Source: Planctomycetota bacterium (GTDB lineage: Bacteria > Planctomycetota > Phycisphaerae > Sedimentisphaerales > Anaerobacaceae). From it: DNA of 64,000 bases. The stretch is taken from the NCBI GenBank assembly GCA_019456195.1, contig VRUK01000007.1:1-64000 (forward strand), given 5' to 3'. Under the pieces are notes generated by a model, which was given only the letters and a program-made list of their open reading frames with translations, had not been told where the DNA came from and did no database searches. A program made the translations under genes and the position numbers. Below are positions 23,122 to 34,757 of this stretch, in pieces. Positions within the stretch are counted from its first letter, which is position 1. Each line of letters opens with the position of its first letter.

Positions 23122-23248
23122 CAACTTTTCCGCCGATAAAATTCACCGATTTCTCCCTTGATTTGACACTTATTATATGGTAGAATTCCGTTATACGGGG
23201 TGTAATTCCCGAAAAACTTTTTTACAGTACAAAATTTGGAGTATCAAC

Positions 23249-24049
23249 ATGAGGAGACGAAGAGGGTTTACCCTGATAGAACTTTTAGTGGTTATCGCTA
23301 TTATCGCACTTTTGATGGCGATATTGATGCCCGCACTGGCCAGGGTCAAGAAACAGGCACAGTCGGTTACCTGTCAGGCAAAACTGAAACAATGGGGCCT
23401 TATATTCAAGCTATATACGGATGACCATGACGGCTATTTCAATGAAGGTTGGGGAGTGGGTGAGCCTACGCTGTTCCCGAACGCACTGCGCTCGTATTAC
23501 AAAAACGACGATAGCATGCTCCTGTGCCCGACGGCAACCAGAGAAATGTTAAGTGATGCCGACTGGGGCACATTTAAAGCGGCTGTCCGTACTATGTCAA
23601 CACCAGAAGGTGGTTCTCGCCGTTACGTCTTCAGCTATTGCATAAATTCATGGACCAATTATATGCACGCCGACCGCGGAAGCCGCCTGGAAGAATGGTT
23701 CTGGAAAAGTGTCAACAATGCCAAAAATATGAGTCAAATTCCAGTCCTCGGTGATGGCACATGGCATGACGCCTGGCCTCGCGATACCGATACGCCGGCG
23801 CCGACTATGGATGCTTTTGGCATAGGCAATCAGGGCACTTCGGGCGAAATGGACCATTTTTGCATCGACCGGCATAACGGATTCATGAACATGCTCTATA
23901 TGGACTGGTCTATCAGAAATACCGGGCTTAAAGAGTTATGGACCATAAAGTGGCATCGTGACTTTAACACAATGGGCCCGTGGACAAGAGCCGGCGGCGT
24001 AATGCCCAGCGACTGGCCGCGATGGCTGCAGCGATATAAAGATTACTAA
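23249..24049 (+). CDS. Prepilin-like (type II pseudopilin) protein
   Basis: A 266-residue protein with a prepilin peptidase site: [20 protein letters not shown], with cleavage expected after the Gly and Glu at mature position 5. One long hydrophobic helix follows, then the region ARVKKQAQSVTCQAKLKQWG. The C-terminal globular part carries H-N-G-F-x-N-x-L-Y-M-D-W, a variant of the H-X9-DG motif of planctomycete pseudopilin-like proteins in which W replaces G. ATG 23249 has GGAG 7 bases upstream and gives the short leader expected; an upstream ATG at 23177 would add 24 residues before the leader. A paralogue lies immediately downstream with its own terminator. Probably secretion-apparatus or surface fibre related; exact role unknown. 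Confidence 0.85.
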   Translation: MRRRRGFTLIELLVVIAIIALLMAILMPALARVKKQAQSVTCQAKLKQWGLIFKLYTDDHDGYFNEGWGVGEPTLFPNALRSYYKNDDSMLLCPTATREMLSDADWGTFKAAVRTMSTPEGGSRRYVFSYCINSWTNYMHADRGSRLEEWFWKSVNNAKNMSQIPVLGDGTWHDAWPRDTDTPAPTMDAFGIGNQGTSGEMDHFCIDRHNGFMNMLYMDWSIRNTGLKELWTIKWHRDFNTMGPWTRAGGVMPSDWPRWLQRYKDY

Positions 24050-24068
24050 AATTATCTGCCAAATACAA

Positions 24069-24099
24069 AAAGGCCGGCCTATCGGGGCTGGCCTTTCTT
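24069..24099 (+). terminator. Intrinsic terminator between the two prepilin-like genes
   Basis: AAGGCCGGCC and GGCTGGCCTT pair around a short loop (TATCGG) and are followed by TTCTTA, shortly after the first prepilin-like stop codon. This separates the two paralogues into independent transcripts. Confidence 0.75.
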
Positions 24100-24154
24100 A
24101 TGGACTGATATTATTTGAAAAGAAATCTGAACGGACAGAATGGAGTTGTTTCTT

Positions 24155-24904
24155 ATGCGAAAAAAACAAGGATTCACCTTAATCGAACTTTTAGTCGTCA
24201 TAGCTATTATCGCTCTGTTGATGGCAATCCTGATGCCCGCACTCCAGCGGGTAAGAAAACAGGCAAAAGTGGTTCTCTGCCGCACCAATCTCAAGGAATG
24301 GGGTCTCGTCTGGGCAATGTACACAGACGAAAACAATAGCAAATTCCCCGACTATATGGGAGGCGACTGGATGCAGAATCTGATAGATTACTACTCTAAC
24401 AGCGAAAAACTCCTTTACTGCCCGATGACCACCAAAACCATGGAAGAGGGCGCTCCAGTCCGCTATTCAATTCTCCCTACCGGAGGAAGCTATTCACTGA
24501 ATGAGTGGATTTATGACAGCGACGATACCGGTGGCGGCCGCAGGCTCGAGGAGTACTGGAGAAGCACAAATCATAAAGGTTTGAATAACGTCCCTGTTAT
24601 GGCAGATGGCGCCTGGCGTGCTGACGGCCAGCCCTACGAAACCGATGCACCTCCCTCATACGATGGAGAGCCGCGCTCTGGAGTAGGTACGACAGGAAAT
24701 GAAATGCGCATCTTCTCCATCAACCGTCACGATGGATTTGTAAACGTCCTCTTTATGGACTGGACCACCAGGAAAATAGGAATCAAAGAGTTATGGACTT
24801 TGAAATGGAATACCGACTATAACATTGCCGGCGCATGGACTACGGCCGGCCTCGCACAACCGGGCGACTGGCCGCAATGGATGAGGCATTTCAAAGACTA
24901 TTAA
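24155..24904 (+). CDS. Prepilin-like (type II pseudopilin) protein, paralogue
   Basis: A 249-residue protein opening [20 protein letters not shown], the prepilin peptidase site and hydrophobic helix, then [16 protein letters not shown]. It shares the whole layout of the preceding gene, including YTDENN near residue 60, RRLEEYWRS, and the C-terminal [14 protein letters not shown] followed by [15 protein letters not shown]9-D-W replaces the usual H-X9-DG. ATG 24155 gives a six-residue leader with GGAG 9 bases upstream; ATG 24140 overlaps that GGAG and is less likely. The two arose by duplication and have diverged in the middle. Different promoters and terminators suggest separate regulation. 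Confidence 0.85.
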
Positions 24905-27192: not shown

Positions 27193-27330
27193 GGTAAATA
27201 ACGCAGTTTTTCCCACTTTACACTTGGCATTTGCGGACTTTGTTATTAAATTTAATATAGAGGGAAATCCAAAAAGCTGGCGGAGAGGACCAGCCGATAA
27301 TAAATGTGTTTTAGGATGGGGAGAAACTTT
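27193..27330 (+). promoter_or_regulatory. Conserved leader region, copy 1
   Basis: This stretch (CACTTGGCATTTGCGGACTT core, then A/T-rich, then a GCTGG-CGGAGAGGA-CCAGC stem-loop at 27276-27294) is closely repeated at 27559-27694 before the intact small gene. Retention of non-coding sequence in both copies, including a stem in each, suggests a promoter plus 5' leader structure. The duplication may also simply be recent. Confidence 0.45.
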
Positions 27331-27459
27331 ATGAGAGGTTGGAAGATCAAATTAATTTTTCTGCTGATAGTCTATCTTGGCGGCTTTGTGTGTAAAAGCA
27401 CTACCGTTCCGCCGTCTTACAACAATCCGACTACGGGGGTCTGCGAAACATCGAAATAA
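27331..27459 (+). pseudogene. Chimeric truncated copy of the small membrane-protein gene
   Basis: A 42-codon frame. The first 19 codons (MRGWKIKLIFLLIVYLGGF) parallel the intact gene at 27695 (MRGWKAKLVFMLVVYFGGF). The rest (VCKSTTVPPSYNNP, then VCETSK) parallels the 3' end of the DegT gene (VCKSTIALPFHNNL, then VCKTLK). DNA alignment continues past both stop codons (CCGTAGATACACA versus CCATAGATATACA). This is the junction expected of a tandem duplication of about 417 bp with one breakpoint in DegT and one inside the small gene. It has an AUG and GGAG-like leader, so it might be translated, but it lacks the body of the intact protein. Confidence 0.75.
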
Positions 27460-27558
27460 GTTTAGCTTAGCCATAGATATACAGTTTATTATTTTCACAA
27501 AAGCCGGCTCGGCCAATGCTTACGAGAGACTCCACGCCGATAATTAAGCAGAAAATAA

Positions 27559-27694
27559 GGTGAATAACGCAGTTTTTTGCACTTTACACTTGGCATTTGC
27601 GGACTTTGTTATTAAACTTAATAATAGAGGCAAAATCCAAAGGCTGGCGGAGGGGATCAGCCAATAATACATTGCTTAGGAAGGGAGAAAATTT
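27559..27694 (+). promoter_or_regulatory. Conserved leader region, copy 2
   Basis: Second copy of the leader, ending with GGCTG-GCGGAGGGGAT-CAGCC (27642-27662). The stem register differs by one base from copy 1 but a 5-bp stem is kept. GGGAG precedes the ATG at 27695 by about 8 bases. Confidence 0.45.
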
Positions 27695-28012
27695 ATGAGA
27701 GGATGGAAAGCTAAACTCGTTTTTATGCTGGTGGTCTATTTTGGAGGCTTTGCGACTGCGATTTATACTTTGGCGCCCGCCCCTGAAAACAATGCCAATG
27801 CATCTGCTGATTCTTCGTTTTTTCGAAGTGTAAAGGCCGGTGCGGAAGAAAAAAGCTCTGTTTTTTCGGCGGTTAAATCAGAAGAGTTCAAAAATTCGGT
27901 GAACTCAGGATTGCACAAGTGCTTTGAATTTAGTAAGGATGCTGCCTGGCGTACTGCCAGATTCATAAAGCAAAAGATTGACGAAGAAAGACAAGCTCGA
28001 ACTGATAGCTGA
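27695..28012 (+). CDS. Small single-pass membrane or exported protein
   Basis: A 105-residue protein not matched to any family. MRGWKAKLVFMLVVYFGGFATAIYTL is an N-terminal membrane anchor or signal. A low-complexity Ala/Asn/Pro linker (PAPENNANASADSS) and a charged helical C-terminus (SAVKSEEFKNSV...RTARFIKQKIDEERQ) follow. Phe-rich FFRSV, VFSAV and EFKNSV recur as degenerate units in the middle. GGGAG supports the ATG. A truncated paralogue lies 364 bases upstream, and a strong bidirectional hairpin follows. Function unknown. Confidence 0.7.
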   Translation: MRGWKAKLVFMLVVYFGGFATAIYTLAPAPENNANASADSSFFRSVKAGAEEKSSVFSAVKSEEFKNSVNSGLHKCFEFSKDAAWRTARFIKQKIDEERQARTDS

Positions 28013-28236: not shown

Positions 28237-30216
28237 CTATAATCCGAGTTTCACTTGCTCGTTGAATGTTCGCAACTGCACGCTTATAGTGTTTAACACC
28301 CAGTCTATATAGTGCAATTTGTGAGCGGGCCGATGGTGTCCTTCGTTCATCAGGCCGTTCCTTACGGTTTTCAAGAATCTGCTTATTGTTTGTGAGCTTA
28401 GCTGAGTAGGTTCCGCTGCCCATTCCTTTAATTCTTCATATTCCCGCCGTAATTTCCCACTGCCGCATAACTGTTCAGCGGTTAAATAATCACCGGGATT
28501 GTAATCAAGCTGAAGACCTTTGAGACACATGATTAACGGCTCATAATTGGTCTTTTCTCCAAGACGAATAAATTTATACTGATGGACATACGTAGTCGCC
28601 TGGGCCGGCGGTTTATCTGCAATATCCCCTCCGCCCAGATACCACCTGCGCTTGCTCGATCTGGCAAATACAAGCTCCTCGTCATTCGCTTCTTCGCTCT
28701 GTTTCTCGGTTGAATCCGACAGGGTTGATGAAAAACGATTGGAATATTGTGTTATCTCATTGTGACCCATTCTTGAAACCCAAAACCTGCCTGAGTCCTT
28801 TCGTTCAGGACCGCCGCCGAGCAAAAGTAAGCACTTAACAAAACCTAAAGGCAATATTTGTTGATTATCGATCTGTCTTTTTCGAAGCTGGAAAGAAAGA
28901 TGCAGGCTATGCGGGCGAACGTCATAGAAATTGGTTATCTCTTGTATCAACTTATTGAGAAGCCACGGATCCGAAGTTGCCGGCCGGGAAAGTTCTCCCC
29001 GGATATTCAGCCGTCCCGGAGCAAGCTCCAGAAAACCGCACCGGCGGCCCTGGTCGGCTGAGCCTGTGTGATCGTCAATATATCCACCGAGTTTCCAGGA
29101 CAAAACATCAAGGCGAAAATCGTAGAAATACTTAAACCCGTCATACACGGGGTCACTCTTATTCTGAATGCTTCTTTGCGGCTCGACAGCCGCAGGACCA
29201 AGATTGCTTAATTCTAACTCAATTCCAAGTGGAACCAGCCCGGGCTGAAGATTCGAACGAATTTGCGATAGTTTTGCACGGGCAATGCGAGCATCAAACA
29301 TACTTTTCGATGCACGTACGGCGTATTTGATATAGTCAATGAGGTCGTGTTTGTCACAGGGCATTGTTTGAAGGCTTCTCTCAATAATCAAACCAACAGC
29401 CCTGCTGTTTGCATTTACCATTTGCAAAGCCGCAAGAATACTGACCGACCGCTTAAAATATCTTTCTGAAATATGCATATGCTCGAGTTCAAAGCGGTAT
29501 TGAGATTGGATTTGTTCTTCGAGCTGGCTGAGCAGGACCTGCTTTATAACCAAAGCTAAATAGTTCTTTATAAACGGCTTGGCTTCCGGGTCACTGGATA
29601 AGTGTTTGATACTCGGCCGGGGCCTGTCGAGCTCGTGTTCAAGATAATAATCACTAACGGCATCGGTGTGATAATGGCTCATCACCAGATCACGCTCTGT
29701 CGTCGCGAGAAGTTCCCGGTCGGCTCGGCGCTCCGATTCGGCATCTGCTGTTCGTTCACCGGGACGGGTGCGCCTCTTGATGAATTTATCAATGCGTTTT
29801 CGCAGCCAGAGTTCGTGTATAAGGTTAACATGGAACCTGTCGCCAAAGTGTTTCTTCATCGAGCTGTGAGTTACAAGGTATGCCTGCGCTTCGACCGGAC
29901 CATTTGCCGTGTTGATTTCTACCTTTTCTCTTTTATAACGCTTGCCTTCATACCTGTCGATTTCCGCCATCGCCCAGGCGGGAATATCATAGACCACCAG
30001 CCCTTCGATTTTTGATGACGGAGCTGAAACAGCATAGAAATAGACATTGTCCGGACTGACTTTTCGATAATGGGCAAGAAAGGCCGGCTCCACCCAAAGG
30101 GTCTCACTGTCAATTTTTGAGGCCTTCCTGCTAAAACTTAAACCGCTGACTGATTTGAAGATTCTACGGTCACGCAGCGAGCCGTAGATGAATAGATTTA
30201 CCTTTCTCTCGTTCAT
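28237..30216 (-). CDS. Gamma-glutamylcyclotransferase-like domain fused to amidoligase-like domain
   Basis: A 659-residue cytoplasmic protein. Residues 5-125 are a GGCT/AIG2-like domain: VNLFIYGSLRDRRIF (the YGSL substrate loop), EGLVVYDIPAWAMAEIDRYEG with the family's catalytic-type glutamate in the D-x-x-E-G region, and YKREKVEI. A helical middle follows (about 130-320). Then LGIELELSNLG (330-340), GFLELAPG (394-401) and HSLHLSFQ (436-443) appear in the order and spacing of the amidoligase branch of the COOH-NH2 ligases (G-x-E-x-E, E-x-x-S/A-P, H-x-H). GGCT-type domains are known companions of amidoligases, acting on gamma-glutamyl amide bonds. ATG 30216 follows AGGA; the frame stays open to GTG 30288, overlapping the upstream GT2 gene by 25 bases. 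GGCT is confident; the amidoligase call is tentative. Confidence 0.65.
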   Translation of the reverse strand: MNERKVNLFIYGSLRDRRIFKSVSGLSFSRKASKIDSETLWVEPAFLAHYRKVSPDNVYFYAVSAPSSKIEGLVVYDIPAWAMAEIDRYEGKRYKREKVEINTANGPVEAQAYLVTHSSMKKHFGDRFHVNLIHELWLRKRIDKFIKRRTRPGERTADAESERRADRELLATTERDLVMSHYHTDAVSDYYLEHELDRPRPSIKHLSSDPEAKPFIKNYLALVIKQVLLSQLEEQIQSQYRFELEHMHISERYFKRSVSILAALQMVNANSRAVGLIIERSLQTMPCDKHDLIDYIKYAVRASKSMFDARIARAKLSQIRSNLQPGLVPLGIELELSNLGPAAVEPQRSIQNKSDPVYDGFKYFYDFRLDVLSWKLGGYIDDHTGSADQGRRCGFLELAPGRLNIRGELSRPATSDPWLLNKLIQEITNFYDVRPHSLHLSFQLRKRQIDNQQILPLGFVKCLLLLGGGPERKDSGRFWVSRMGHNEITQYSNRFSSTLSDSTEKQSEEANDEELVFARSSKRRWYLGGGDIADKPPAQATTYVHQYKFIRLGEKTNYEPLIMCLKGLQLDYNPGDYLTAEQLCGSGKLRREYEELKEWAAEPTQLSSQTISRFLKTVRNGLMNEGHHRPAHKLHYIDWVLNTISVQLRTFNEQVKLGL

Positions 30217-30263: not shown

Positions 30264-30974
30264 TCAGTCTTTTCGGATTTGTTTCCACAATCTGAACAAC
30301 TCTTTAAATGCACGAAGAATCACCCGCAAATTCGCTCCGGTTTGTGCCCCCGCCGTCCGCGGATAATGATGGACCCCCTGTTGTTCCACACGATAACCTT
30401 TGCGAACAGCTCGAGCTAAGATTTCAGCATCGATAAGCGCCCCGGTACTTACTAATTTAAGGTTGTCAAAAATCTCCCTTTTGTATAACTTGAAAGCACA
30501 GTCGATGTCGCGGATTTTCATGCCGAACAGCAGGCAAACAAGTTTCGTCCAGCACCAGGCATTGATTTTACGTACGAGATTGTCCTGACGGTTCAGTCGA
30601 TAGCAGCTCACAATATCGCACTGCTCTATCAAACCCAGCAGCCCCGGCATTTCTTTAATATCGAATTGCCCGTCCCCGTCGGTATAAAAAACAAGGTCTT
30701 TTGTCGCTGCTTTGAAACCCGATTGCAGCGCCGCCCCGTATCCAAGATTGGTCCGATGATGCACAACTTTGACCCTGTCATTTCCGCCGGCAAGCTCATC
30801 GGCAATTGTGTCCGTACCATCACTGCTGCCGTCGTCAACGATAATTACTTCAAAGTCGGCGTTGAGCTTTTCCAGGACGGCAAGGGTCTGTTCTACCATG
30901 CCGGTGACATTGCCATGTTCGTTATAGCAGGGGAAAAAAACGCTGATGGAAACATTGTTTGCCGGCTCAGTCAT
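30264..30974 (-). CDS. Glycosyltransferase family 2 (polyprenyl-phosphate sugar transferase type)
   Basis: A 236-residue GT-A fold enzyme. It has ISVFFPCYNEHGNV, IIVDDGSSDGT (nucleotide-sugar binding), LGYGAALQSGFKAA, and FYTDGDGQFD with the D-x-D-like metal motif. IRDIDCAFKLYKRE is typical of dolichyl/undecaprenyl-phosphate mannose or glucose synthases. No C-terminal membrane segments are present. ATG at 30974 is used. It sits 55 bases downstream of a large polytopic GT-C-like protein on the same strand. The arrangement suggests this enzyme makes the lipid-linked sugar donor that the membrane protein uses. Confidence 0.9.
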   Translation of the reverse strand: MTEPANNVSISVFFPCYNEHGNVTGMVEQTLAVLEKLNADFEVIIVDDGSSDGTDTIADELAGGNDRVKVVHHRTNLGYGAALQSGFKAATKDLVFYTDGDGQFDIKEMPGLLGLIEQCDIVSCYRLNRQDNLVRKINAWCWTKLVCLLFGMKIRDIDCAFKLYKREIFDNLKLVSTGALIDAEILARAVRKGYRVEQQGVHHYPRTAGAQTGANLRVILRAFKELFRLWKQIRKD

Positions 30975-31029: not shown

Positions 31030-33582
31030 TTACCACCTCTTCGTTCGAGACACCCTTATCAATTCACTTACATATTTGTTTTGCAGAGCCACATAATCAT
31101 TCACGAGTTTTGTGTTATTTTGTGCTCGGGCAATATTCCCCAGATAATAGCCTGCTAACCGTCCCGCTTCAAGCCTGTCACGATATCCGTCCTCATTGGC
31201 CCATTTAGCTTCGTTTTCTGTAAACCTCTTGATATAACCTTCGCAAAACTTCTGAACGTCGGGTCTTATCTCGGCGAACCTCGAGGCTATAAGTATTATT
31301 TCGATCATTGGCGCAGGCGATTCATTCAATTCGAAGGCCTTGACGGCAAAATCAAATCCCTTCTTCTTCTCGGCTATCCCCACACGATAGTAAAGCCAGC
31401 TATGCGCACGAATAAGCTTACTGTGGTAATCGTCCGGGTAAAGGCTTTTACCGTCAAATATGCCATCAAATAGCGCCTTGCCCTGCGGCGTTGTTATATC
31501 TACGAACAATTTTTGCTTGTTATTGAAGAATACAAGACGCCAATTAGGATTACGTTCAATGCCCTGCACGGCATGATAGGACGTTCTTTCATAATACTCT
31601 CTCCGCGGAGGTTGTGGAGGCGTGCTAAAAATTGACTGAGGCATCAAAACCACCCAGACATTATGCCGCTTTAGCTCCTTATCCATCCACTGGCCAATCT
31701 TTAAATAATCGTCATGAGTTAAACCCTGTCCATAAGACGCAGCTCGTTTAAGCATCAGGCTTGTTGTATCCGAGTCACCGGCCATAATATTCGTCCATAA
31801 ATCGAAATACCTGCGGTCATAAGCCGCCTGTGCCCTGCCATCCATAAACAACTGTAAAGGTGTTTTGCCCGTATTCGGGTCGGGCTCCTGACCGAAGCCT
31901 ATAAAGCCGCCCTCTGTCCAGTAATTAAACATCTTTCCTTTTAACTTGTTGTCCTTCATAAATCTCGTGGCGTAAAACGGCTTTTGCCCCGAGTCGGTCA
32001 TCCGCATAAACATTGATGTTAATTTCGGGTCGCGTGGCCATGCATCGAGATAAATCCGCTTAAATTTCAGTCCCCACCAGGCGCCGAAATAAACCACCGC
32101 CGCAGCACCGGCAAAGACTAAAAATAATTGCAGATTATACCCCATCACCCCAACAGCCAGATGTTTGTTTTTCCGAAAGTTTATAAATGCTGAAATTGCA
32201 CGAACAATCTGGTCAATCAACATTGCTATAATCGGGCAGGCCGCGATGGCCGCTACAGGAATAAACCTGCGCGAACGCACCGCCATATAAATCGTAAGAG
32301 CGGCAATAAGCATCAGTGACATATCTATCTTCGGCCATTGATAACCTACGGCAAGTTTCATTTTCCGCCTGGTTTGCTGGTCAACAGCTTTGGAAGTTTT
32401 TAGAAGCACGACAGCCCAAACCAAAAGAGCCGCCCAGCCCATAATGTATATCACTAAAAAAGGCACCGCAGTACCGACAGGATTAGTCCAGTCAAAAGCC
32501 GGATGCCACTCGTGAATGTTACGCCATCTCGCTGCGTGTTCGCTCACACTAATAGCAAATGTATGAGTCAGGTTCGTTAAATGAAAAGGATTGAACACAA
32601 TCGTAGCCACTAACGCAGCAGAAGCAGCGCCGATAGTATGATACACGCCCTTCCATCCGATCGAAACAAGATTTTTCTTATAAAATACCAGCAGAATATC
32701 CAAAAATATCACGAGGATTGAAAACAGAAATGACGGCAATGTCAAGCCCGCTCTGGAAAGGACGAAAAACAAAAAAGGCCAGGCGGCAACGTTATACAAA
32801 ATCGCAGTCCATTTTTTATTTAAGCTGGTAAGCAGATGCAAACCTATAAACGGCACAAGCATTATGAACGCGTAGATATACCCGCCGTGGACATTGCACC
32901 AGAAAACCGTCACCGGAACAATCAGCCATATATACAGCACGTTGCGATACGTCGTAAGGGCAAGTATAAGCAAAAAGACCGCCACTAACATATTCGAAAA
33001 ACCCGCCGGGCGGATATCGAGAAATGAACGTCCCGCAAACATCGCAAAGCAGGAAAACACCGCACACAGCCACGGATGGACCCCCAGTAACCGCCCCGTA
33101 TAATAAACACATATCACAGTCAATATGTAAATAGCGAACTTCCAATAGACCAGAGCGTTGGATGAAAAACTCACTCCGTCCGCGTATGATGATTCGGGAA
33201 TCAACGAATAGAAGATTACATGCGTCAGCCAGTTTTGATTTATCCAGCCCGTCGGATGCCATTTCTTGACGGTATCGATACCGACTTTATCCGTAATCCA
33301 CTGGGCCCAGTTTGGCCAGTTTTTAATCTCTTCTTCCGTCGGTCCTGCTTTATGCGAATTCGCGCTGAAAGGCTCGATTGTATCGACCCCGTGATTGACA
33401 AAATGCCGCCCGCTCGCCATCGCGACCCACGTATCACCCGCGGCCACCATGTGTGTGCACGCGTGAAATGTAAAAACAAGCATCGCCAGCCAACAGATGA
33501 CAATGGAAACACGGCGCAGAACATCCAACTTCTGACTTTCGACTTCCGAATTCTGATTGCTGACTTCTACTGACTTAGCCAT
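31030..33582 (-). CDS. Polytopic membrane protein, GT-C glycosyltransferase-like
   Basis: An 850-residue integral membrane protein with about 10-12 hydrophobic segments between residues 25 and 520, then a long soluble C-terminal part (about 525-850). An early luminal loop has the acidic motif AAGDTWVAMASGRHFVNHG followed by DTIEPFSAN, which matches the G-D-x-W...G-x-x-x-x-x-G...P-x-S motif of uncharacterised GT-C-like planctomycete proteins. WHPTGWINQNWLTHVIFY extends it. The C-terminal domain (FYATRFMKDNKLKGKMFNYWTEGGF) is shared by such proteins. Its start overlaps the end of the aminotransferase gene by 16 bases, and a GT2 gene follows. Likely transfers a sugar from a polyprenyl carrier; family-level inference only. 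Confidence 0.65.
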   Translation of the reverse strand: MAKSVEVSNQNSEVESQKLDVLRRVSIVICWLAMLVFTFHACTHMVAAGDTWVAMASGRHFVNHGVDTIEPFSANSHKAGPTEEEIKNWPNWAQWITDKVGIDTVKKWHPTGWINQNWLTHVIFYSLIPESSYADGVSFSSNALVYWKFAIYILTVICVYYTGRLLGVHPWLCAVFSCFAMFAGRSFLDIRPAGFSNMLVAVFLLILALTTYRNVLYIWLIVPVTVFWCNVHGGYIYAFIMLVPFIGLHLLTSLNKKWTAILYNVAAWPFLFFVLSRAGLTLPSFLFSILVIFLDILLVFYKKNLVSIGWKGVYHTIGAASAALVATIVFNPFHLTNLTHTFAISVSEHAARWRNIHEWHPAFDWTNPVGTAVPFLVIYIMGWAALLVWAVVLLKTSKAVDQQTRRKMKLAVGYQWPKIDMSLMLIAALTIYMAVRSRRFIPVAAIAACPIIAMLIDQIVRAISAFINFRKNKHLAVGVMGYNLQLFLVFAGAAAVVYFGAWWGLKFKRIYLDAWPRDPKLTSMFMRMTDSGQKPFYATRFMKDNKLKGKMFNYWTEGGFIGFGQEPDPNTGKTPLQLFMDGRAQAAYDRRYFDLWTNIMAGDSDTTSLMLKRAASYGQGLTHDDYLKIGQWMDKELKRHNVWVVLMPQSIFSTPPQPPRREYYERTSYHAVQGIERNPNWRLVFFNNKQKLFVDITTPQGKALFDGIFDGKSLYPDDYHSKLIRAHSWLYYRVGIAEKKKGFDFAVKAFELNESPAPMIEIILIASRFAEIRPDVQKFCEGYIKRFTENEAKWANEDGYRDRLEAGRLAGYYLGNIARAQNNTKLVNDYVALQNKYVSELIRVSRTKRW

Positions 33583-34757
33583 TCTTCCAGTCTGTCTAAC
33601 CCTTTGGTAATCTGCTCAAGCGAACAGGCAAAACTCAAACGTACATTATTATCGCAGCCAAACGGCAGCCCCGGAACCAGCGCAACATTAGTCTGTTCCA
33701 GAAGCGCCTTTGCAAAATCCATACTGCCGTTAATCTGCGCACCATTAATATTTCGGCCATAATGCCCTGAAACATCAGGGAAACAGTAAAAAGCACCCGT
33801 ACTTTCGGGACATTCCACGCCTTCGATGCCGTTCAGCCGCTCAACCATATACTTGCCCCGACGCTCGAATTCCACCCTCATACTCTCTATGGCCTCCTCG
33901 GCAGGCTCTCCCAAAGCCGCAATCGCAGCATACTGACCGAACGTCACCGCATTCGATGTCATATGAGATTGAAGACGCCCCATCGCCTTGATAACCTCCA
34001 GCGGCCCCGCCGTATATCCCAGCCGCCAGCCCGTCATAGAGAAAGTCTTGCTGAACCCGTTAAGAGTCAACGTCCTGTTATAAGCATCCTCACTCAGCGA
34101 AGCAAAGCTCACAAACCTCGTGTCACCATATATCAGCTTCTCATAGATTTCATCCGAAAGCACCATCACATCTGTCCCTTCGAGCACCTCTGCAATGGCC
34201 TTCAGCTCTTCCGGCGTATAGGTAAAACCGCCCGGATTACTCGGTGAGTTAATCAAAACCATGGCCGTCTTATCAGTTATCGCCTCTTTCAACTGCGACG
34301 GCGTCATCTTATAGCTGTTCTCTTTGTCCGTTTGAACAACCTTCATAACCGCCCCGGCCAGTTTGATAGTCTCCGGATAAGTAACCCAGTACGGAGTCCC
34401 TAAGATGACCTCGTCACCCGGATCAAGCACCGCCTGCATCGCCTCATAGACCGAATGTTTACCCCCGATATTTACAATGACCTGCTCCGGCTTATAGTCC
34501 AGACCGTTGTCTTTTTTGAACTTCTCAGCGATAGCCGCCCGCAGCTCAATCAAACCCGAGGCCGCCGTATATTTCGTCTTACCAGCCTTCAGCGCCTCGA
34601 TAGCGGCCTCCTTAATATATTCCGGCGTATCGAAATCCGGCGCTCCTGCCCCAAAACCAACTACGTCCGCTCCCTGCGCTTTTAATTCCTGCGCACGCGC
34701 CGAAACCGCCAATGTCGCCGACGGCGGTACTTCCTGGGCTCGTTTACTTACTTTCAT
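33567..34757 (-). CDS. Class I/II PLP-dependent aminotransferase (aspartate aminotransferase type)
   Basis: A 396-residue fold-type I aminotransferase of subgroup I-gamma. Features: FGAGAPDFDTPEYIKEAA (N-terminal arm), KTKYTAASGLIELR, YWVTYPE, LINSPSNPGG (PLP phosphate/pyridine site; usual SNPTG has G for T here), VLSDEIYEKLIY, and NGFSKTFSMTGWRLGY with the Schiff-base lysine. The C-terminal arginine is in NNVRLSFACS. It likely transfers amino groups between aspartate (or a related amino acid) and 2-oxoglutarate. It overlaps the start of the membrane protein gene by 16 bases, so transcription is probably shared though functions look unrelated. Confidence 0.93.
   Translation of the reverse strand: MKVSKRAQEVPPSATLAVSARAQELKAQGADVVGFGAGAPDFDTPEYIKEAAIEALKAGKTKYTAASGLIELRAAIAEKFKKDNGLDYKPEQVIVNIGGKHSVYEAMQAVLDPGDEVILGTPYWVTYPETIKLAGAVMKVVQTDKENSYKMTPSQLKEAITDKTAMVLINSPSNPGGFTYTPEELKAIAEVLEGTDVMVLSDEIYEKLIYGDTRFVSFASLSEDAYNRTLTLNGFSKTFSMTGWRLGYTAGPLEVIKAMGRLQSHMTSNAVTFGQYAAIAALGEPAEEAIESMRVEFERRGKYMVERLNGIEGVECPESTGAFYCFPDVSGHYGRNINGAQINGSMDFAKALLEQTNVALVPGLPFGCDNNVRLSFACSLEQITKGLDRLEEWLSQ

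Follow-up and report, generated by a model that had tools for sequence, protein, structure and literature searches.

Does a single planctomycete protein join the making and the cutting of gamma-glutamyl-type amide bonds? The question is raised by one gene in a window of 64,000 nucleotides, the whole stretch of DNA analysed here (contig VRUK01000007.1, positions 1 to 64,000; host assembly GCA_019456195.1, our genome G000, 5.8 Mb in 217 contigs). A sequence-only reading of the window had described the gene product as a gamma-glutamylcyclotransferase (GGCT) joined to an amidoligase-like enzyme. The gene and its main parts are:

28240..30216, reverse strand: coding sequence of 659 amino acids (ATG at 30216, last codon 28240, stop codon 28237-28239); homologues align from this ATG
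29833..30216, reverse strand: N-terminal GGCT/AIG2 domain, residues 1-128 (PF06094 and structure match)
30175..30186, reverse strand: YGSL motif, residues 11-14 (Y11 and G12 in 41/41 sequences)
29947..29949, reverse strand: E90, putative catalytic glutamate (invariant in 41/41 and 77/77 sequences)
29251..29823, reverse strand: helical middle region, residues 132-322 (from the secondary structure of the model; no Pfam match)
28246..29244, reverse strand: C-terminal domain with predicted glutamine-synthetase fold, residues 325-657 (AlphaFold model and structure comparison)

The open reading frame is a real gene. Forty-eight columns are invariant across the 41 aligned sequences, 40 of which are 35-89% identical to the protein of the window, and on this alignment the conservation far exceeds chance expectation. 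The frame stays open to a GTG at 30288, within the 3' end of the upstream gene; ATG 30216 was taken as the start because homologues align from there. Both halves lie in one open frame and in the same polypeptide, as had been proposed.

PF06094 (GGACT; GGCT, AIG2-like) is the sole Pfam family above its cut-off in the protein, matching residues 8-117 with an E-value of 3e-12 and 47.6 bits against a curated cut-off of 22.8. The same profile matches 41/41 aligned homologues (E ≤ 1; best 2.2e-14). In a structure comparison with VIA-align this part reached Z 13.3 to 2g0q and 12.0 to human GGCT (3cry), and 16 of the 50 structures listed align to it with Z 13.3-8.8, most of them GGCT, GGACT, ChaC2 or AIG2-like proteins. 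The claim of a GGCT-like domain with a YGSL motif was thereby confirmed. E90 aligns with the conserved glutamate of plant AIG2-like proteins and presumably corresponds to E82 of GGACT. By analogy, drawn from that alignment, it is the putative catalytic residue; the glutamate conserved among GGCT, GGACT and ChaC enzymes is catalytic (PMC7022552). Judged by these signatures the protein is a GGCT family member with an intact active-site signature, for which the formation of 5-oxoproline is a prediction only. It shares the fold, the YGSL motif, the conserved glutamate and the profile match with human GGCT, GGACT and plant AIG2-like proteins, but differs from them in carrying about 530 further residues after the domain.

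Sequence searches gave no family for these further residues. No Pfam family exceeds its cut-off in residues 130-659, and Pfam, NCBIfam, PHROGs and PADLOC returned nothing significant for the C-terminal half. No ligase family is among the Pfam matches of the 41 members to this half at E up to 1; a few weak sub-cut-off matches (Thoc2, for instance, reaches a best E of 0.0095 and appears in 12 members) were taken as chance. The profiles of Amidoligase_2 (PF12224), PafA/Dop (PF03136) and GCS2 (PF04107) each match 0/41 members at E ≤ 1. A search of PDB sequences, made once from the full profile and once from residues 318-659, gave no relevant match, the best (E 0.12) being a kinase. Alignment of the C-terminal half by hhalign gave a probability of 0.3% against GCS2, 0.2% against an Amidoligase_2 alignment of four planctomycete proteins and 0.4% against two PF03136 alignments; runs with other settings gave nothing significant either. 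Because these profile tests fail, we do not assign the domain to PafA, Dop, GCS2 or Amidoligase_2.

Among planctomycete proteins with a PF03136 match, L203-L206 carry motifs of the GxDIELxN, YIDLxHLE and SHxxF types and appear by eye nearer to the C-terminal domain than the other PF03136 proteins compared. This likeness (YIDL..HLEL, SHxNF) is a by-eye reading and was not counted as evidence of homology.

The structural model is more informative. AlphaFold2, run on a 77-row alignment, gave a model with a pLDDT of 86.3 and a pTM of 0.87. From residue 325 on it contains strands at 330-336, 379-381, 395-398, 435-443, 513-515, 518-524 and 541-551 and helices at 417-430 and 559-571, followed by four more helices, with shorter elements between. 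Carboxylate-amine ligases have a six-stranded core in which conserved helices follow the third and the sixth strand, and PafA and other members add four further helices (PMC2588565). By our comparison the model agrees with this description in the order of its strands, in the helices that follow strands 3 and 6 and in its four extra C-terminal helices.

VIA-align found 192 chains with Z ≥ 2, and 34 of the 50 listed align to the C-terminal half. All 34 belong to the glutamine-synthetase superfamily and represent at least six enzyme kinds: Dop (6), PafA (1), YbdK-type (2), glutamine synthetase (19), GmaS (1), gamma-glutamylcysteine synthetase (4) and bifunctional glutathione synthetase (1). The best of them reaches Z 11.4 (rmsd 4.3 over 243 residues), to be read against the best Z of 7-8 that is common for models without a true match and against the advice to split models of more than 400 residues, the C-terminal half having been compared as part of the whole-chain (659 aa) model. 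Four Dop entries score 11.4-11.1, PafA 11.2, the YbdK-type structures 10.9 and 10.3 (we take 1tt4 to be a YbdK homologue) and two further Dop entries 9.2 and 9.1; the Dop/PafA and YbdK-type structures are tied within Z 1. On residues 125-266 the fold search was barely informative. Foldseek against the PDB placed GGCT-like structures on top, followed by PafA (4bjr), glutamine synthetases and Dop; only two matches reach E 0.001, both to the GGCT part, and the E-values for the glutamine-synthetase fold are weak (best 0.035, for PafA). The C-terminal half is thus predicted to adopt a glutamine-synthetase fold. The sequence-only reading had staked its claim on a fold related to COOH-NH2 ligases, and no unrelated fold was obtained, 34/34 listed matches having the glutamine-synthetase fold. 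Its description of this half as amidoligase-like holds for the fold of the model but not for membership of Amidoligase_2 by profile.

The residues that bear on ligase function are:

29212..29226, reverse strand: GhExE (G331-I-E333-L-E335), residues 331-335, on strand 1 at 330-336 (E333 40/41, E335 40/41)
29074..29076, reverse strand: D381, acidic, on strand 2 at 379-381 (39/41)
29026..29028, reverse strand: E397, acidic, within ELAP (397-400), on strand 3 at 395-398 (39/41)
28900..28911, reverse strand: H436-S-L-H439, on strand 4 at 435-443 (H436 41/41, H439 39/41)
28756..28773, reverse strand: R482-x4-E487, before strand 5 (both 41/41)
28648..28650, reverse strand: R523, on strand 5 at 518-524 (41/41 in alignment A1, 76/77 in A2)
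28564..28581, reverse strand: Q546-x-K548-x2-R551, on strand 6 at 541-551 (Q 40/41, K or R 41/41, R 41/41)

Compared with the carboxylate-amine ligase signature as defined in PMC2588565, the domain has the GhExE motif on strand 1, acidic residues on strands 2 and 3 (D381, E397), an arginine on strand 5 (R523) and another in the preceding loop (R482). Two positions deviate. On strand 4, [HD]x[NH] ([HQ]x[NH] in PafA) is replaced by H439-L-S441, where the first position fits in 39/41 sequences and the second is serine in 40/41. On strand 6, in place of Ex[RK]x2D ([QH]x4D in PafA), Q546 is PafA-like and the [RK] position fits, but the last residue is arginine in 41/41. The second strand-4 position is not absolute, since the planctomycete PF03136 protein L203 (E 7.2e-102) has the same H-x-S. 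E333, E335, D381, E397, H439, R482, R523 and Q546 are all kept in 39/41 sequences, down to 35% identity. Most signature residues therefore sit on the expected strands, with two deviating positions, and on the model and the alignment the domain probably works like a carboxylate-amine ligase. Of the motifs that had been read in amidoligase order, G-I-E-L-E (331-335) and E-L-A-P (397-400) do follow the order of carboxylate-amine ligases, but the H-x-H motif does not exist: the sequence is P-H-S-L-H-L-S, in which H436 and H439 form H-x-x-H, followed by H-x-S.

Among known enzymes, Dop and PafA (PF03136; deamidase-depupylase and Pup ligase) resemble the domain in fold (Dop Z 11.4-9.1, PafA 11.2) and in the order of strand motifs, but the protein of the window has no PF03136 profile match and is fused to a GGCT domain. 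YbdK/GCS2 (PF04107) and the gamma-glutamylcysteine synthetases share the fold (Z 10.9-8.8) and GhExE, again with no profile match to the window's protein. To Amidoligase_2 the likeness is one of motif order only, with 0/41 profile matches.

Because two conserved active sites of opposite chemistry share one chain, we favour, with somewhat better than even confidence, a bifunctional gamma-glutamyl-amide ligase/cyclotransferase. That the protein may both make and cleave gamma-glutamyl-type bonds is what we infer from these two sites. With ATP and Mg, the C-terminal domain would activate a carboxylate, which by analogy would be the gamma-carboxylate of glutamate, and couple it to an amine; the GGCT domain at the N-terminus would cyclise a gamma-glutamyl amide to 5-oxoproline and free the amine. 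Together the two sites could set the amount of a single gamma-glutamyl conjugate or trim it, much as trypanothione synthetase-amidase makes and cuts its own product. The ATP chemistry, glutamate as the donor and the action of both halves on the same bond are all presumed here. Against this reading stand the lack of any sequence or profile relation to ligases, the weak Foldseek scores, the deviations on strands 4 and 6 and the uncoupling of the two sites in one lineage, the genome family f15.

Family f15 is represented by two sequences (L064 and L065, 49% identical), from the only two genomes of the family that the search found. We compared them over the 70 columns that do not vary among the remaining 39 sequences (ligase part 48, middle region 7, GGCT part 15). 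Changes fall on 10/48 ligase-part columns in L064 and 17/48 in L065, on 1/7 and 2/7 in the middle region, and on 0/15 and 1/15 in the GGCT part, counts taken from two divergent rows in which alignment error is possible. D381, H383, E397 and H439 are altered in both sequences, with differing replacements, and E333, E335, S441, Q443, Q546 and E559 in one member each. Some changes are conservative (E333D, E335D, D381E) and some lie outside the presumed site (G340, Y363, F395, F430, Y636). R482, E487, R523, R551 and K566 are retained, and the domain is therefore still constrained. That presumed metal/ATP-site residues distant in sequence decay together supports our mapping of the site. On these alignments L064 and L065 are likely pseudo-ligases, and f15 can serve for comparison as a lineage in which the ligase site was lost naturally. 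The GGCT site of f15 has outlived an intact ligase site, so there is no strict coupling between the two activities.

The same lineage speaks for a different role of the glutamine-synthetase-fold domain, in which it would have given up ligation; as a binder of ATP, glutamate or a gamma-glutamyl compound it would regulate the GGCT domain or present substrate to it. The strand-4 and strand-6 deviations would suit such a role, as would the persistence of the domain in f15 after the loss of several presumed metal/ATP residues. We nevertheless consider it quite unlikely, given that 39/41 sequences keep the full set of mapped site residues, as catalysis predicts.

The protein has a match in 40/61 genomes (that of the window and 60 relatives). 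In a class sample 74/298 genomes match. Of these, 67 have the protein at essentially full length (66 as one match, and G010 with one gene that an alignment gap splits), 5 have it in pieces only and 2 have the GGCT domain only. Twelve partial pieces were rechecked; 11 run into a contig end and one (G009) stops 165 nt before it. Inside the window's order the genome families f1, f3, f6 and f7 are positive, and the listed genomes of f2, f4 and f5 gave no match; outside the order f12, f15 and f16 are positive. In a phylum sample, where at most five first-look candidates were scored per genome and misses are possible, the C-terminal profile matched 7/392 genomes, all from the window's order and all in frames of at least 653 codons. 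A stand-alone ligase half was not found in the class (298) or phylum (392) samples. The two GGCT-only matches (G157 and G250, about 22 bits) resemble ordinary short cyclotransferases.

A contig-wide scan returned 156 relatives. The best 80 of the 156 are titled planctomycete except for one 'uncultured bacterium', and the closest homologues among these 80 come from metagenome-assembly contigs titled Phycisphaerae, Sedimentisphaerales or Planctomycetota. The tree of the 41 sequences follows the genome families, with f7, f12, f15 and f16 each strongly supported, f15 beside f16 and deeper branches weaker, which makes vertical descent likelier. A mobile or phage origin was considered and rejected: no relative occurs in viral contigs or in 50,697 phage records, and the tree follows the genome families. 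Three matches in a viral fold library have E-values of 0.001 or less; judging from their names and aligned lengths, they are confined to the GGCT part.

Other glutamate ligases were sought by their profiles. PF03136 has no match in the 61 genomes (a Corynebacterium control matched), nor has PF04262 (controls matched). PF04107 occurs in 22/120 class genomes; within the window's order G159 alone has it, and the window's own genome gave no match. PF12224 was found in 6/199 genomes of a phylum sample; the 61 relatives gave no match, but the control genomes likewise gave none, so that this result does not speak for absence. Three large planctomycete proteins with an Amidoligase_2 match (L196, L197 and L198) show a second GFELEG further along the alignment consensus, hinting at two tandem ligase-like domains.

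These counts bear on the idea of a writer and eraser of a protein modification, acting like PafA and Dop on protein lysines or a peptide tag. Dop (Z 11.4-11.1) and PafA (11.2) do head the ligase-fold matches, tied within 1 with YbdK-type structures, and to the eye the strand motifs are much like those of L203-L206. GGCT enzymes, however, act on small gamma-glutamyl compounds. PF03136 had no match in the 61 genomes, and among small same-strand open reading frames of at least 90 aa none recurs as a neighbour of the gene at more than a handful of the 113 loci; we regard this idea as very improbable.

The neighbourhood of the gene, on its upstream side, comprises:

30264..30974, reverse strand: family-2 glycosyltransferase, likely in the same operon (PF00535, E 7.7e-29; position conserved; 47 bp gap)
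31030..33582, reverse strand: 850-aa multi-pass membrane protein, conserved operon neighbour (a simple hydropathy count gives about 11 hydrophobic segments)
33567..34757, reverse strand: class I/II aminotransferase, conserved operon neighbour (PF00155, E 8e-79)

The 850-aa protein has no Pfam or NCBIfam match and so cannot be called a glycosyltransferase. Hence the statement that the gene abuts glycosyltransferases is right for the family-2 enzyme 47 bp upstream on the same strand and not for the gene after it, which has no family. As to the stated absence of ATP-grasp partners, a Pfam scan of six neighbouring proteins matched no ATP-grasp family.

Neighbours were counted with a simple longest-ORF caller with a 90-aa floor, in the 113/121 loci (101 distinct) where the caller kept the gene, the other 8 being excluded; operon counts refer to the 62 of these with at least four called genes upstream. 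The glycosyltransferase and the membrane protein lie upstream on the same strand in 42/62 loci, and together with the aminotransferase in 31/62. An alanine racemase is present in 16/62, always as the gene directly before, and 10/62 have none of the four. A racemase directly precedes the gene at L068 (7988-9136; 292.7 bits against a TIGR00492 cut-off of 168) and at 17 other distinct loci, those of known family being f7 and f3. At the listed loci of f12, f15 and f16 these neighbours do not occur; the operon is thus a trait of the window's order, not one that goes with the protein itself. Cell-surface glycans or D-alanine are possible connections, though weakly indicated. The neighbouring genes name no gamma-glutamyl pathway and give no clear substrate.

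A sequential action on different bonds should be weighed here: the GGCT domain would deprotect an incoming substrate by taking off its gamma-glutamyl group and the ligase would join the freed amine to another carboxylate, an acyl swap. Both sites are conserved over widely diverged sequences, as such a scheme would have it, and the results fit more than one donor or acceptor for the ligase. The neighbouring genes, on the other hand, indicate no second substrate or pathway, and we think the scheme unlikely.

For the bifunctional ligase/cyclotransferase there are partial precedents. The ligase and amidase folds of trypanothione synthetase-amidase differ from those seen here. That enzyme is alike in concept only, being built from other enzymes in other organisms, but with amide synthesis and hydrolysis in one chain it is a precedent for a make-and-cut fusion (PMC2784880). 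In firmicutes, GCS2-sized carboxylate-amine ligases are encoded beside an Aig2-family cyclotransferase (Iyer et al. 2008, PMC2588565). This is the same pair of enzyme types in neighbouring genes, whereas in the planctomycetes studied here a helical middle region links the pair within one polypeptide; the likeness drawn is one of enzyme type. An amidoligase and a gamma-glutamylcyclotransferase are also among the genes of a planctomycete phage (2024, PMC10945688). The pairing of ligase and cyclotransferase is therefore already known. A fusion with a ligase fold invisible to profiles is not described in the titles and opening abstract lines of the literature searched, a set that does not cover the 2009 amidoligase survey.

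Going further, the domain may be an unnamed branch of the glutamine-synthetase fold, unrecognisable by sequence and always fused to its own eraser, which would write and remove gamma-glutamyl conjugates on a class-specific metabolite or peptide, in genomes where the known glutamate-amine ligases PafA and GshA were not found. We offer this as a speculation, and on the doubtful side. If the bifunctional reading holds, the C-terminal half is a ligase family overlooked by sequence searches, and annotation would list it as the unnamed tail of a 'gamma-glutamylcyclotransferase'. The ligase product would then likely be a gamma-glutamyl amide that GGCT can open, so that an assay on one half would narrow the other.

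Two further features of the window were noted. A 105-aa open reading frame at 27695-28009 on the forward strand, converging on the gene, has one N-terminal hydrophobic segment, no Pfam match and relatives at 8 loci in all; immediately ahead of it is a shorter version of its beginning, flanked similarly on the 5' side (region 27302-28009, forward strand). At 23177-24901, forward strand, two similar genes stand side by side after a sigma-factor-like gene, both with N-terminal segments of prepilin-like type ([16 protein letters not shown]), these functions being read by eye.
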